From: Pirellulales bacterium
GTDB taxonomy: Bacteria > Planctomycetota > Planctomycetia > Pirellulales > Lacipirellulaceae
Length of the DNA stretch: 64,000 bases
Reading direction: 5' to 3'
Assembly: GCA_022448265.1 (NCBI GenBank)
Contig: JAKVCC010000005.1
Coordinates: 62,001-126,000 of the forward strand
Part shown: positions 48,104 to 54,129 of the stretch, piece by piece
How positions within the stretch are numbered: position 1 is the first letter of the stretch
How the letters are laid out: each line of letters begins with the position of its first letter
Program-made: the position numbers and the translations under genes
Notes under the pieces: model-generated
The model's database searches: none
The model's input: the letters and a program-made list of their open reading frames with translations, nothing else
What the model was told of the DNA's origin: nothing

Positions 48104-51100
48104 GTGAACGTTAAATCTCTAGAACTGGATGCAAGCGACTCCGCTACGCTCGAAGAACTAGTTGGGTATCTCAACTTTTCCTCTGGTGCAGGAGACCCTA
48201 ATTTCCTCCGTCAGATTAATCAGATTTACCGGTCTGTGGAATCGCGCGGAGAGCCAACGCAAAGTTTGCCGCAACTCTTCCAATGGTTGCGTGAGACAGT
48301 CGAGAGATTGGAAAAGGCTGGAGGGCCGTTTGCCAAGGCAGAGCAGGCGCGGGGGGTTATCGGAATATTGGCAGACAAGCTGCTTCCGGCGTATCGCCAA
48401 TTCCATCGGGATTTACTTTTTCACCAGTCAGAAGCCCAGTTGTGGCGTCCGTTTTTTATCGGCCAAGCCTTTGAGGCGATCTTGGCACAGGGCTCACCTT
48501 GGGGCGAAAGCGACAGGATCGTCTCTGGGGCGCTAGTCGAATTGAACGACTACTTCGGCTATCGTCCCATCGCGACGTTGGCCACCGGTGATACAACAGA
48601 TCCCTATCCTCACGAGTTCGTTCGTCCGTTACCGCTCTATATTCGCGGAGCAGGTGTGGAATATGGGCGCTACGAAAAAATCATCCAGTTGACCCTAGAC
48701 ATTTTGCAGAGTACCGATGAAGAGATTCTTGCGCACGCTTGGTTTGATCTTGATCGCCTGGATGAGATTGCCGTCGATCCACGGGCCTACGATTTTGACC
48801 ATCCGGTGAACCGCCGGCCCAATTATCATTTCGGTCAATGGGATCCGCGACAAATCTCCACCGCCGGCTACTACCGGCGGTTTGTATTGCAGCAAATCAC
48901 GCTGGATGCTCTGTTGTCGCGCTGTCACGAAGACAACGGCTCTCAAGGCACACCCCGAGAGGACCGTTTGAAAGAGGCGGCGTCCGTGCTGGCAGGCACC
49001 ATGCTGATGGCATCTGGGACAAGCGGCGACGGTCCGGGGAGACACGATTCGACTGTTTCACTTTCGACCTTATTGCCTCACATTGCTGGTTACCGCGACA
49101 ATTTCTACGCGCAGCTTTTGGCGGGCGCAGAAGGTTCATATGGCGAGCGGCTGCGCGAGGAGGCACGCCACTACCATCAACCTTTTGGTGCGGCACGACA
49201 GCACCTCAACCACGAGCTTGCTCGGCGCCGCGCGCTCCAGATGCAGCGCGTCCATTTGGCGCACCTCTATGCTCGGCTTAGTTTTCCCGAGTCGGCCCAA
49301 GAGCAAGCCGCCTCGGTGCGTGTCGCCTCAGCCAGAATGTTGACGGAGATTTATTGTCGCTTAACCTCCGGTCACGATGCGATTGACGCCGACAAGTTAG
49401 ATCGCGTGGTCGAGCCACTGGCTGCTTGCGAAAAGCTGTTGTATGACGCGATCGAGTGCGGTGCCTTGGTCGATCCATGGAACGTAGTAGGTTTTGCGGC
49501 CAACTTCAGCCTGTTTCCGGCCTTAGAGAATACGGTCCACGACTGGCGCGTTGACGAGCTCATTGAATTGGTCGAGCAGGTACTTGATTTATGTGCGAGG
49601 GGGTGGAGCGAGGCAGCGGCGATCGACAATGCTGAGCTGGAGGAGCATTTTTCGACCCAGCTTAGCCGGCTGGCGGAATGGTGGGATAAATTTGCCACCG
49701 CGTCGGTGGAGGGTGTCAAGCGGCTGGTTGCGAAGGACATCCAGGTTTCCGCCAATCTTGTGGCGGGAGCACTCAACGCTTGGCACAAGGCTGGCGCTGC
49801 AGCGGGTGATGTTGCTTTTTGGCACATGTTTGTCGACCAATTCGATTCCTCCAAGGCGTTTCAATTGGTTATCGAAGCACTTCTCGACCACGACGATACC
49901 GTTGCGTCGATGGCATTGATGATGCAGTGGGTTAGTCAGAAGGATCGAACGCCCCTGGAAGAAGGTGACAACTCATTTCGCAGGTTGGCTTTCCGCTGGT
50001 TGGCAACAGTCGACGAGCAGCAGGAAGACCAGGAAAAGGACGCCTGGCCTCAGGTTGCCAAATTCTTTGCCTATCTGGAAGCCAATGCGGAAGACTACTG
50101 GCAAGTGCCAACGATGATGTTTGACGCCGATGGCGAAGGGATCTACGGGGAGTTCCTGGATGACGTTGACGGAGCTATTTACTTCGAAGAGGACGAGCAT
50201 GACGTCGGCAAGGACCCCGATGAGGATCCCGATGGAGAGTTTAAGGTGGGGTCCGATAACGGTCTTGAAGGCGGTCTCGACGAGGACGGGGAAGCCAATT
50301 CTGGCGGCGTGCGCTCGGGTGGGCTTTATCAGGCAGCCTATGAGGAGATGGTATATCGCGACAGTACGGACGATGGTAATGAGGGAGATATCGCCGACGA
50401 AGGAGGCGATTGGGAATATTCCGAGTGGGAACACGAGATCGAGCGGATTGAGCAACGGCTCGATTTTCTTGCCGCCATCGCCAGTCTGTGGAAACATGCT
50501 GCGATTGGTTGGGGGTTTTCCGAGCGAGGCGGAAAGCGGTCCGAGGTTTTCAATCAATGGCTTAAGCAAGCTACCGCGAATTACAGCCATTTGGTGACAT
50601 TGCTCGAAACGATCCACGACTTTCAGATCTCGCCGACCTCGGGTTCGCACGATTCGTTGGTCGAGTACGACCGGTTGCGTACGCTGAAAGAATCGCTCGT
50701 CCAAAAAATAATTGGGACATGCGTCGAAACGGCTGACGCCGCGCGGTTGCTCGCCGCCACGCACGAGCCAGGGGAATTGCAGGAGGCCGAACTGCTCGAA
50801 GATCCGATCAATATTCGCGCGGTCGGCATCCTGGACGCAATTCTGAGGGGCGATGCAGCCGGTGTTCGCAGCCAATGGCAGGAGTTTTTGGATGCGCTGC
50901 GGCCAAAATCGTTATTGTATGTACCGAATGCTCGCGGCGGCGAGCCGCGGCTTATCGTAGCGACCCGTAGCTTGCAGCAGCTGCTCTATGACTTGTTAGG
51001 TTGGCTGCCGCAAATCGGACTTATTCGGGAGACTTCTCAACTGCTTGACCTAGCACAGCAATTGGAAGCCGAACACCCGGTAGGCCAAGGGGCCGTCACC

Positions 51101-52201
51101 GACTTTGACAGGCTCTTTGCTAACGGTTTCCAGGCAATTGTCCGCGCGCTAGCATCTGCTGCCGAGCAGTGGGACAAAGTGCCGGCATCGTCGCAAGGAC
51201 AGCATGCTGATCACATGCTGGTCGATGCTCTCCAGCAGCTTACCGAACGTCATCTCGACCGATGGTTGCATCATAGCCATACCCTTCGCCTCAGTGTTGT
51301 GGAGAAAGTTGCCGAAGACGAAAGTTGGGAGCGGCTCCAAGCTTTTATCAAACGTTACGGTGCGGATCTGTTCGATCAGAAGTTCATGAGCTTCGGCAAC
51401 TTGCGTGGCATTTTGCATCAGAGCGTCGAAGGGTGGCTCCAAAGCTTGGAAGAAGACCCCGATGCGTTCGCGGATATACGCCTCCTCGACGAATTGGGCA
51501 ATCGCTGTTCTCACAAGGAAGCGGTCGAATCGTTAACACTTGCCATCGGCGCTGTGGTCGAGAACTTTCGGGTTTATCGTGACTACAACACTACAACCAC
51601 CCAATCGGACCACGGTGATCAGCTATACACGTTCATTGATTTTTTGCGTTTGCAGTCGGCCTACGATCGAGTCGCTTGGAACCTGAAGCCCGCGGTTTGG
51701 GTCCATGAGATTTTGATCCGCCAACGGCGTGCCCTGGCCGCCGAGATGTGGTGTCAGGCCTTTGCCGACCGCACATCGGAGGCGGCCGATGTCCATTCGG
51801 CAAGACTGGAACAGCTTTGCCAGAAGTATGGCATGCGGTTGGCAACGGTGACCGACCGCATCGGAGAGCGCTTCATTCGGCCGCTCCTGATTGACCGTGT
51901 CAAAGCGCTGGTGGAACCGGCACTGAGCGCCGACGAAGATTGCAGGCAAGTCGCTTTTGCTGACCTCGAACGAGAAATAGACGGATTGGCCAGTGAGCCA
52001 TGTGGGGCGGGGCTCGATCTTCCTGACTGGCTAGCCGCCTTGGAAGACGAAGTGACCATGGCTCGTTCGCGATGCAGCCATCAGCCATCCTGGAATCGTT
52101 TTTCGCACCGAATCGGTCAGGTGAATCTTTCCTGGCAGGAGCTTCTTGATCAGCTCGATGATCCAGGCGAGGAGATTGGTTCGGAGCCCAATGGTGAGTG
52201 A
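48104..52201 (+). CDS. Very large cytoplasmic helical protein, unknown function
   Basis: 1365 residues starting with GTG at 48104. There is no signal peptide or membrane segment. Predicted by eye to be almost entirely helical, with HEAT/TPR-like amphipathic segments (LARRRALQMQRVHLAHLYAR, ELEEHFSTQLSRLAEWWDKF) broken at about 680-770 by an acidic, low-complexity linker rich in Asp, Glu and Gly (EEDEHDVGKDPDEDPDGEF). No nucleotide-binding or catalytic motif is recognised. A hairpin terminator overlaps the stop, so it is probably expressed alone. The frame is intact over 4.1 kb with consistent base use, so it is under selection. I do not recognise the family; a scaffold role is only a guess. 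Confidence 0.85.
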   Translation: MNVKSLELDASDSATLEELVGYLNFSSGAGDPNFLRQINQIYRSVESRGEPTQSLPQLFQWLRETVERLEKAGGPFAKAEQARGVIGILADKLLPAYRQFHRDLLFHQSEAQLWRPFFIGQAFEAILAQGSPWGESDRIVSGALVELNDYFGYRPIATLATGDTTDPYPHEFVRPLPLYIRGAGVEYGRYEKIIQLTLDILQSTDEEILAHAWFDLDRLDEIAVDPRAYDFDHPVNRRPNYHFGQWDPRQISTAGYYRRFVLQQITLDALLSRCHEDNGSQGTPREDRLKEAASVLAGTMLMASGTSGDGPGRHDSTVSLSTLLPHIAGYRDNFYAQLLAGAEGSYGERLREEARHYHQPFGAARQHLNHELARRRALQMQRVHLAHLYARLSFPESAQEQAASVRVASARMLTEIYCRLTSGHDAIDADKLDRVVEPLAACEKLLYDAIECGALVDPWNVVGFAANFSLFPALENTVHDWRVDELIELVEQVLDLCARGWSEAAAIDNAELEEHFSTQLSRLAEWWDKFATASVEGVKRLVAKDIQVSANLVAGALNAWHKAGAAAGDVAFWHMFVDQFDSSKAFQLVIEALLDHDDTVASMALMMQWVSQKDRTPLEEGDNSFRRLAFRWLATVDEQQEDQEKDAWPQVAKFFAYLEANAEDYWQVPTMMFDADGEGIYGEFLDDVDGAIYFEEDEHDVGKDPDEDPDGEFKVGSDNGLEGGLDEDGEANSGGVRSGGLYQAAYEEMVYRDSTDDGNEGDIADEGGDWEYSEWEHEIERIEQRLDFLAAIASLWKHAAIGWGFSERGGKRSEVFNQWLKQATANYSHLVTLLETIHDFQISPTSGSHDSLVEYDRLRTLKESLVQKIIGTCVETADAARLLAATHEPGELQEAELLEDPINIRAVGILDAILRGDAAGVRSQWQEFLDALRPKSLLYVPNARGGEPRLIVATRSLQQLLYDLLGWLPQIGLIRETSQLLDLAQQLEAEHPVGQGAVTDFDRLFANGFQAIVRALASAAEQWDKVPASSQGQHADHMLVDALQQLTERHLDRWLHHSHTLRLSVVEKVAEDESWERLQAFIKRYGADLFDQKFMSFGNLRGILHQSVEGWLQSLEEDPDAFADIRLLDELGNRCSHKEAVESLTLAIGAVVENFRVYRDYNTTTTQSDHGDQLYTFIDFLRLQSAYDRVAWNLKPAVWVHEILIRQRRALAAEMWCQAFADRTSEAADVHSARLEQLCQKYGMRLATVTDRIGERFIRPLLIDRVKALVEPALSADEDCRQVAFADLEREIDGLASEPCGAGLDLPDWLAALEDEVTMARSRCSHQPSWNRFSHRIGQVNLSWQELLDQLDDPGEEIGSEPNGE

Positions 52202-52491: not shown

Positions 52492-54129
52492 ATGTCCCGA
52501 GTGCTTAACGAAGCGGCAGCCTGGTCGGGAGCGGGCGAAGCGCCCGAGTCGATTTCGCTGGATCTGCACGTTTCCGATGCGGATAGCCTTCGGGCTCTTG
52601 CCAAATATGAGGCGGGTCCCCAGAGGGATGAATTCGCTCTGGAAGCACTGAAGATTGGCGTCTTGGCCTTGCGGCATGCGGCGGGAGCGCTGGATGCCGA
52701 TTTTGTTCAACGCGAGACAACGCGACTGGTCGATACGCTTCGCAGTCAACTGGACGAGCATGCCCATCGCGCCCACGACCGCCTGACTGGTTCGCTCAAG
52801 GAATATTTTGATCCGGAAGGGGGACGCTTCAGCCAACGGGTCCAGTGTCTTGTCGCCGACGATGGCGATTTGGCCCGTCTGTTGAGTGGGATATTGGACG
52901 GCGACGATTCCCGCCTGGCCAAGACACTCTTTCGCCATGTGGGTGAGAATAGCCCGCTGATGAAGTTGTTGAGCCCAGATCAATCGCAGGGTTTGCTCGC
53001 AACGCTGCGCATCAGCGTCGAAGGCCAGCTCACCCAACAGCGAGAACGAATCCTCAAGGAATTTTCACTCGACAATCCTGACGGTGCAATTCGTCGCCTG
53101 GTAGGCGAGATCACTTCAAAACACGGCGATTTTACGAAGAACATGGAGGGTAAAATTGACGAGGTCGCCAAGCAGTTTTCGCTTGACGAGGAAAACTCGG
53201 CCCTCAGTCGTCTGGTGAACAATGTCGATGAGGCTCAAAAGAAGATCACGCAAGAGTTTTCGCTCGACAATAAACAATCGGCACTCCACAAGCTTAAGGA
53301 GGAGTTGCTCAGCCTTTTTTCGGCTCAGGTGAAGACCAACGCTGACTTTCAGGAAGAGGTCAAGATTGCCCTGGGCAAGCTGGTTACAAAGCGCGAAACC
53401 GAAGCGCAGGGCACGCAGCACGGCTTTTCGTTTGAGGATGCCCTCTTTGAAATAATTGAGCGAGATGCCCTGCAGCGCGGCGAAGTGGCTGAAAAGACGG
53501 GAAACCAGTCTGGCCTGATATCGCGGTCCAAAAAGGGGGATATTGTCCTGGAGCTGGGTTCCGATAGTGCTGCGGCCGGGGCGAGAATCGTGGTGGAGGC
53601 CAAGCAGGACGCGAGCTATAAGTTGGCCAAAGCGCTGGCTGAGATGGAGGAAGCCCGGAAAAATCGCGACGCGCAATTCGGTGTCTTTGTTTTTTCGCGA
53701 CGTGCAGCTCCGAACCAGCTTGCGCCGCTGGCCCGTTACGGTAGCGATTTGGTTGTTGTTTGGGATGCCGAGGACCCGACAACCGATTCGACTTTGCGGG
53801 CGGCACTCGAAATTGCACGCGCGCTGTGTGTGCGATCCTGCCAGGCAGGGCAACGGCAGGCAGCCGATGTGGACAAGGCTGTACTAAGGATCGAAAAAGC
53901 TGTCCAGAATTTAGATGGTGTTCGTACGTCTGCACAAACGATCAAGACTGCCAGCGAGAAGATACTCGATCGTGTTGAAAAGGACCAGCGGACGCTCGAC
54001 AAGCAATTGGTAATTTTGCGGGAGTCGCTTAGCGATCTCAAACAATTCCTTGGTTCCAAGGATAGTATTGCTGCCAAGGATCGTGGCGATTCCGACGGCA
54101 AAAGGCCTATGAGCTACCGGGCAAACTGA
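52492..54129 (+). CDS. Coiled-coil protein with FSLD repeats and PD-(D/E)XK nuclease-like motif
   Basis: 545 residues from ATG at 52492, which has a strong AAGGAGGAAGGA site upstream; the frame from 52426 is not used. Domains: N-terminal helical region (1-180); three spaced copies of the unit KEFSLDNPDGAIRRLVGEI, KQFSLDEENSALSRLVNNV and QEFSLDNKQSALHKLKEEL at about 185-275; then a globular part beginning GFSFEDALFEIIERDAL near 310, with D350 (KGDIVLEL) and E369-A-K371 (IVVEAKQ), the D-x-ExK arrangement of PD-(D/E)XK nucleases; a final coiled coil. It resembles RmuC/DUF2130-like proteins in architecture. DNA cleavage is inferred only. It overlaps the 3' end of the convergent ExeA-like gene by 23 nt. 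Confidence 0.82.
   Translation: MSRVLNEAAAWSGAGEAPESISLDLHVSDADSLRALAKYEAGPQRDEFALEALKIGVLALRHAAGALDADFVQRETTRLVDTLRSQLDEHAHRAHDRLTGSLKEYFDPEGGRFSQRVQCLVADDGDLARLLSGILDGDDSRLAKTLFRHVGENSPLMKLLSPDQSQGLLATLRISVEGQLTQQRERILKEFSLDNPDGAIRRLVGEITSKHGDFTKNMEGKIDEVAKQFSLDEENSALSRLVNNVDEAQKKITQEFSLDNKQSALHKLKEELLSLFSAQVKTNADFQEEVKIALGKLVTKRETEAQGTQHGFSFEDALFEIIERDALQRGEVAEKTGNQSGLISRSKKGDIVLELGSDSAAAGARIVVEAKQDASYKLAKALAEMEEARKNRDAQFGVFVFSRRAAPNQLAPLARYGSDLVVVWDAEDPTTDSTLRAALEIARALCVRSCQAGQRQAADVDKAVLRIEKAVQNLDGVRTSAQTIKTASEKILDRVEKDQRTLDKQLVILRESLSDLKQFLGSKDSIAAKDRGDSDGKRPMSYRAN

Follow-up and report, generated by a model that had tools for sequence, protein, structure and literature searches.

Nucleases of the RmuC type are widespread, and to our knowledge their function is poorly known. 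RmuC (PF02646, COG1322) is described as comprising a transmembrane helix, a coiled coil, an alpha/beta core, a further coiled coil and a disordered tail, and the closest homologue of its core is McrC (PMC1189080). RmuC domains are also reported in Shield and in a DISARM accessory (PMC10952713). The DUF2130 proteins (PF09903) likewise have a long region ahead of the core. In this work, we describe a gene product, here called the FSLD protein, encoded in the window (the whole 64,000-nucleotide stretch of Pirellulales DNA that was analysed). It resembles RmuC in having a helical arm, a predicted PD-(D/E)XK core of McrC-like type, a second helical arm and a probably disordered tail, and differs from it in carrying no transmembrane helix, in possessing a stalk of FSLD repeats, in giving no sequence match and in seldom occurring in the same genome. 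The RmuC-like plan, together with AddAB- and RecBCD-type neighbours in unrelated genomes, offers a concrete handle on function, and the family would contribute a new domain to the annotation of Planctomycetota, Chloroflexota, Acidobacteriota, Myxococcota and Pseudomonadota.

The gene (Table 1) is open from an ATG to its stop; AAGGAGG, read by eye, lies 5' of the ATG and ends 9 bases before it, and scans for promoters and terminators returned no excess relative to shuffled sequences. Conserved residues of the N-terminal domain are D29, L36, R45, A52-L53, I55-G56, Y105-F106, P108 and S154. The protein was modelled in AlphaFold2 with alignment A2, which holds the window protein and those of 79 of the 80 homologous loci described below, the split gene L057 being left out; the full-length model reached a mean pLDDT of 79 and a pTM of 0.44, with pLDDT of 91-98 over residues 311-450. 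It places long helices on both sides of the core, with helices 162-191, 199-210, 218-229, 237-255 and 264-306 before it and helix 431-523 after it. This last helix probably forms a coiled coil, and residues 521-545, modelled at pLDDT below 50, are probably disordered. No transmembrane helix was detected in the FSLD protein, whose highest 19-residue Kyte-Doolittle mean is 1.19, at residue 49, the usual threshold for such a helix being about 1.6.

Table 1. Features of the FSLD gene in the window, with the archaeal plasmid relatives for comparison
Feature	Residues	Position	Strand	Basis
Whole gene, 545 aa + stop		52492..54129	+	ORF; 80-row alignment A2; AlphaFold2 model
Domain order: N-terminal helical domain, repeat stalk, predicted PD-(D/E)XK core, predicted C-terminal long helix		52492..54129	+	
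N-terminal helical domain, conserved	19-183	52546..53040	+	conserved columns; model helices
Repeat stalk, three FSLD units	184-266	53041..53289	+	sequence; inter-helix turns in model
Predicted PD-(D/E)XK nuclease core	305-445	53404..53826	+	model; structural matches; alignment
Predicted C-terminal long helix	431-523	53782..54060	+	model
Archaeal plasmid relatives without a clean FSLD array		L135 6013-7335; L136 4464-5651		

The first-pass annotation had read a PD-(D/E)XK active site in this protein, and in the translated reading frame D350 and E369-A370-K371 lie exactly where it placed them. Folded alone, the core gave a mean pLDDT of 90.9 and a pTM of 0.85 (pLDDT 94-98 from its residue 21 onward), and it is modelled as an alpha-beta-beta-beta-alpha-beta arrangement of helix 310-328, strands 332-335, 351-354 and 365-371, helix 378-392 and strand 396-402, plus further strands; D350 stands directly before strand 351-354, and the strand after that ends in E369-K371. 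Further marks of the core are H310-G311, F314-E315, G349, E384 and N391-R392. The predicted fold has the central sheet that the annotation called for, and its best structural neighbours other than helical bundles are nuclease cores: with VIA-align, the full model matched chain M of the McrBC structure 6hz4 (Z 10.6, 2.9 Å, 122 residues aligned) and Can2 8bao (Z 10.2, 3.2 Å, 126 aligned), followed in lower rows by BsaWI (Z 7.9) and Hjc (Z 6.9), and the core alone matched 6hz4 (Z 10.1, 4.1 Å, 124 aligned) and Can2 (Z 9.5, 3.7 Å, 129 aligned), with VC1899, PaqCI, Bax1, a Pyrococcus repair endonuclease, EndoMS, SgrAI, NucC, Hjc and others further down. Among the matched entries are known PD-(D/E)XK enzymes; others, namely the RcsD-ABL, Roco2 and TIP26 rows, are not known to be such. 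The top row for the full model was a designed helical bundle (Z 13.1), and helical rows of this kind, designed bundles and dynamin stalks with Z up to 13.1, were set aside since bundles score high by shape alone. Foldseek gave no match at E of 0.001 or below (best 0.061 for the full model and 4.8e-3 for the core), and a sequence search for solved relatives returned none at E up to 1.

Homologues lacking the D or the E-x-K were looked for among the 80 aligned proteins, with none found: D350, E369 and K371, together with H310, G311 and G349, are invariant in all 80 rows of A2, and the triad is also present in 25 of 25 rows of a separate alignment, A1. Because of the structural matches and the invariant triad, assignment of the modelled core to the PD-(D/E)XK fold is near certain, and metal-dependent nuclease activity is likely on the sequence and the model. 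The same invariance would be unexpected in a dead enzyme, and a purely structural protein of DNA ends or the nucleoid, in which the nuclease fold binds DNA and no longer cuts, is in our view improbable, even if a mostly helical rod with conserved repeats suggests a scaffold.

Although McrC and Can2 provide the best solved matches of the core, the FSLD protein differs from both in its surroundings: no McrB partner was recognised among the scanned neighbours of the window gene, and no CARF match was obtained in the protein itself. Mrr_cat (PF04471) matches window-protein residues 314-405 weakly, below its cut-off (E 0.01, 16.4 bits against 21), and gives matches at E up to 1 in 21 of the 80 rows (best E 1.9e-4); no other Mrr domain is among the Pfam matches of the window protein.

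The repeat stalk had been described as three evenly spaced FSLD copies. Three copies are indeed present, with their F at residues 191, 229 and 256, but the gaps are 38 and then 27 residues and the spacing is uneven. Since three FSLD motifs arose in 0 of 200,000 shuffles of the protein (two or more in 17), the triplet is not due to chance. Among the 80 locus proteins (L031-L110), a pattern count gave three units in 50, four in 25 and two in 5, separated by gaps of 27 (n=102), 38 (n=75), 54 (n=2) and 32 (n=1) residues; here, the presence of FSLD as such reflects selection, because the search patterns contained FSL[DN]. The fourth unit, mostly LTLD, appears in A1 as a 27-column insertion. In the model, the F of each FSLD lies at or just past the end of a helix and the next helix starts 8 residues later (pLDDT about 53-81), and each unit, of about 27 residues, would therefore be a helix plus a turn. 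Residues 117-173 (window positions 52840-53010, + strand) hold degenerate units resembling the FSLD turn at a spacing of 13-15, which were not significant by column shuffling (column means -4.3 to -6.9; the null maximum averaged -6.4, with its 95% point at -3.3). In two loci, L109 and L057, the FSLD gene is split over two reading frames, by either a real frameshift or an assembly error.

Database comparisons point to a family without a name. For the window protein, no Pfam family passed its cut-off, NCBIfam gave no match at E up to 1 and PHROGs nothing better than E 0.13, and by these three collections the protein appears to belong to an unnamed PD-(D/E)XK family; literature searches on RmuC, DUF2130, PDC-S06, Lacipirellula and AddAB/RecBCD in Planctomycetes returned no title about it. 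PADLOC models matched it as PDC-S06 (E 3.9e-5 and 0.032) and Cmr5 (E 0.011). Membership in PDC-S06 was rejected, the match being confined to residues 182-307 and looking like a helical stretch of SMC-like ATPases; among six proteins found by the PDC-S06 model, four carry a Walker A pattern and resemble SMC proteins by eye; a single FSLD is present in one of the six. Pfam matches such as Baculo_PEP_C, Nsp1_C and CorA were dismissed for their low scores.

Relatives are scattered. Of 59 genomes searched at the protein level, among them that of the window, 32 gave matches (9 of 14 from the genus and 26 of 36 from the family), and even draws gave 41 positive genomes out of 217 from the order (completeness 90 or more) and 24 out of 292 from the phylum (completeness 85 or more), these two counts including a few relatives that matched over the core alone or had no match in the stalk (G039 and G464 for the order, G059 and G076 for the phylum). 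A scan of one genome per species, using peptide patterns with FSL[DN] in which D350, E369 and K371 played no part, yielded 84 relatives, of which 80 were kept as the loci referred to above. These records are mostly metagenome assemblies, and seven phylum labels appear in their tree: Planctomycetota (the majority), Chloroflexota, Acidobacteriota, Myxococcota, Pseudomonadota, Spirochaetota and Thermodesulfobacteriota; one of the loci, L108, is titled Coriobacteriia. Plasmid searches gave four matching records, all archaeal and below 60% identity. Two of the archaeal plasmid proteins, WP_015313854.1 and WP_007143104.1 (440 and 395 aa, annotated as 'restriction endonuclease'), align to the A2 profile over the N-terminal domain, the core and the C-terminal arm (E 9e-40 and 3e-48 when these two sequences alone were searched), with the FSLD array degenerate or absent. 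As the relatives in G039 and G464 also match over the N-terminal domain and the core and not over the stalk, the stalk is best regarded as a variable module. The Methanomethylovorans relative comes after genes for a DNA methyltransferase and a DEAD/DEAH helicase.

Given the shared domain order, the FSLD protein might be a true but diverged member of RmuC or DUF2130. A comparison of its core with DUF2130 by hhalign was colinear, the G-D ... E-A-K of the former running alongside the G-D ... W-E-S-K of the latter with D and E-x-K in register, at a weak probability of 1.0-3.6%; a profile comparison of this single pair, run twice, was also weak (E 0.0038 and 0.057), with no match to the FSLD stalk in the nine DUF2130 proteins compared. 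Against membership, neither PF02646 nor PF09903 matched the window protein at E up to 1, hhalign probabilities against alignments of 4 RmuC and 9 DUF2130 proteins ranged from 0.1 to 3.6%, and the transmembrane helix is missing. The window's genome itself gave no PF02646 match at E up to 0.001 and no PF09903 match. This membership is already disfavoured, and we hold it to be quite improbable.

The three protein types rarely coincide. Among the 217 genomes of the order, FSLD-type proteins occur in 41, DUF2130 in 21 and RmuC in 22, and the FSLD type shares a genome with RmuC or DUF2130 in two (G029, G366) against 8.1 expected (p 0.004, or 0.006 without G039 and G464, whose only relatives lack FSLD; kinship uncorrected in both). 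Of the 59 genomes searched, 32 carry the FSLD type, 13 carry RmuC or DUF2130 over the cut-off and 2 carry the FSLD type together with one of these (G007, G029), with p 0.003, kinship again uncorrected, or 0.006 if a dropped RmuC row of G005, below cut-off at E 7.9e-4, is counted. In the 14 genomes of the genus, several of them below 85% completeness, FSLD proteins are found in nine and DUF2130 in four others, with no overlap between these two; one of the FSLD genomes (G007) also has RmuC. Because kinship is uncorrected, the rare co-occurrence is no more than a hint of shared function, and any such function is dispensable, since all three types are missing from 135 of the order's 217 genomes.

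Away from the window's own branch, gene neighbourhoods vary, with helicase-nucleases as a recurring class. The names AddA and AddB are assigned here by domains, namely PF12705 by itself or UvrD together with PF12705. In L063 (Dehalococcoidia), the FSLD gene is followed on the same strand after 225 bp by an AddB-like and then an AddA-like ORF; in L106 (Acidobacteria), also on one strand, a Mrr_cat gene follows after 43 bp, and then AddB-like and AddA-like genes; in L107 (Pirellulaceae), the order is AddB-like, AddA-like, 107 bp and the FSLD gene, all on the same strand. Other partners include a helicase with RNase_H_2 and AAA_12 domains, 88 bp beyond the FSLD gene on the same strand in L102 and arranged likewise in L073 with a 110-aa ORF between, and, in L095 (Myxococcales), ORFs with RecC_C, UvrD and RecD_N domains followed by a 246-aa ORF and the FSLD gene. 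In L109, an ORF with RNase_H_2 adjoins the FSLD gene and PF12705 matches lie about 9 kb upstream; in L101, the neighbour matches the DNA2-like cluster, has no Pfam domain, and comes from a genome giving no PF13482 match. The linked AddAB-like pair of genome G549 is the only one found there. The Mrr_cat gene of L106 (1195-2100, + strand; E 7.8e-7) is a separate gene, and several nuclease genes thus stand in a row at that locus.

A linkage count was made on 42 of the 80 loci, picked by hand after their neighbours had been read and including every place already noticed; with L051 left out, 41 genomes with 42 FSLD places were used and genome sizes were rounded. PF12705 (111 matches) or PF13482 (30 matches) lay within 10 kb of 6 of the 42 places against 0.52 expected (p 1e-5), the helicase-nuclease class having itself been picked after reading the neighbours; the same six were within 5 kb (0.30 expected), and with all 80 loci as denominator 0.98 were expected (p 5e-4). 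L095 is not counted, its RecB having no PF12705 match, and L101 is likewise not one of the six. At the remaining 36 places, neither domain was found within 10 kb; most FSLD copies, the window's included, are not beside helicase-nucleases. Cluster profiles, applied to the ORFs called in the window and in each of the 80 loci, gave no AddA-like or DNA2-like match in the window's flanks, nor in the 11 of the 38 left-out loci whose flanks reach at least 5 kb on either side. On a tree of 73 rows, for which L106 and L109 were too short, adjacency was labelled on six rows (L063, L073, L095, L101, L102 and L107, with L101 labelled by profile match only), L101 and L102 being sisters; the label requires five gains or losses, all five forced by starred branches. 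Separate gains are favoured over losses of one old arrangement because partner types and gene orders differ.

The first-pass annotation had suggested a DNA-processing or defence role, and the AddAB-, RecBCD- and DNA2-like helicase-nuclease neighbours in several unrelated genomes speak for DNA processing, with defence the less probable of the two. We tentatively favour, at somewhat short of an even chance, a metal-dependent nuclease that helps to process double-strand ends or recombination intermediates, aiding AddAB/RecBCD-type enzymes. Such a protein would be a soluble DNA nuclease of the PD-(D/E)XK type, with catalysis and metal use presumed from its active site of D350, E369 and K371, which a conserved H-G-x-x-F-E helix precedes. 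The core would have on one side a rod of short helices, linked through FSLD turns, and on the other the long C-terminal helix; this placement makes a dimer or larger assembly probable, one that would reach along or bridge DNA. Its putative substrates would be double-strand ends, to be cut or trimmed, or branched recombination intermediates, and it would act as a helper with or after AddAB/RecBCD-type helicase-nucleases, its presumed partners; in other lineages, RmuC and DUF2130 proteins may take this role. A stronger version, in which the family specialises in aiding end processing, has joined AddAB, RecBCD and DNA2-like machines on several separate occasions, uses its rod as a ruler or bridge between DNA ends and replaces RmuC/DUF2130 in those lineages where it occurs, we consider unlikely.

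The strongest rival to the repair reading is defence, in which the nuclease would degrade incoming foreign DNA, either by itself or as an accessory to restriction or AddAB-like defence operons, and to which we give a limited probability, roughly one chance in four. The sporadic spread and the mixing of phyla on the tree are in its favour, for example a Myxococcota-labelled row inside a Pseudomonadota clade, with binning errors possible; so are the methyltransferase and helicase beside the distant archaeal plasmid relative, the Mrr_cat gene adjoining the L106 copy, and the RmuC domains reported in Shield and a DISARM accessory (PMC10952713). In G523 (L063) and G548 (L106), moreover, the AddAB-like pair adjoining the FSLD gene comes in addition to another such pair elsewhere. 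Also in favour, the 102 near neighbours of 34 homologues match 142 PADLOC families (E no higher than 1e-5); GajB, MkoA, MkoC, RTasHel, type IV RecD and others are the commonest, each matched by two neighbours, and these neighbours may be the same helicases counted above as repair enzymes. Among the first 25 Pfam families listed for the same neighbours, the commonest are PDDEXK_1 and AAA_19, with five each, which argues against defence. So does the lack of any relative in 50,697 phage records or in viral contigs, where 25 stretches fit the pattern and none was a relative by tblastn. On the window's own branch, a similar chromosomal place is kept in 13-18 loci, the window included, and this steady place looks like vertical inheritance, again counting against defence. 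In 18 loci, the window among them (48104-52201, +), the FSLD gene is preceded on its own strand by a gene for a 1365-aa protein, at a median gap of 182 bp, and in the window this protein matches no family over its cut-off (DUF6892 falls below it, E 0.016); a convergent AAA protein and an RNA-methyltransferase-domain gene each recur in 13 loci of the branch.

In L074 (3805-15266), the FSLD gene is flanked by a DUF499 gene on one side and by a DUF932 gene on the other, a setting that is in line with defence, and further large ORFs there have, by eye, the look of a DUF1156-type methyltransferase and of Hsp70. AlbA_2/Schlafen-like genes lie near the FSLD gene in two unrelated genomes (L088, 7348-8805, +; L105, 11605-12834, -), PF04326 having matched 2 of the 102 neighbours, with the assignment to these two loci made by eye.
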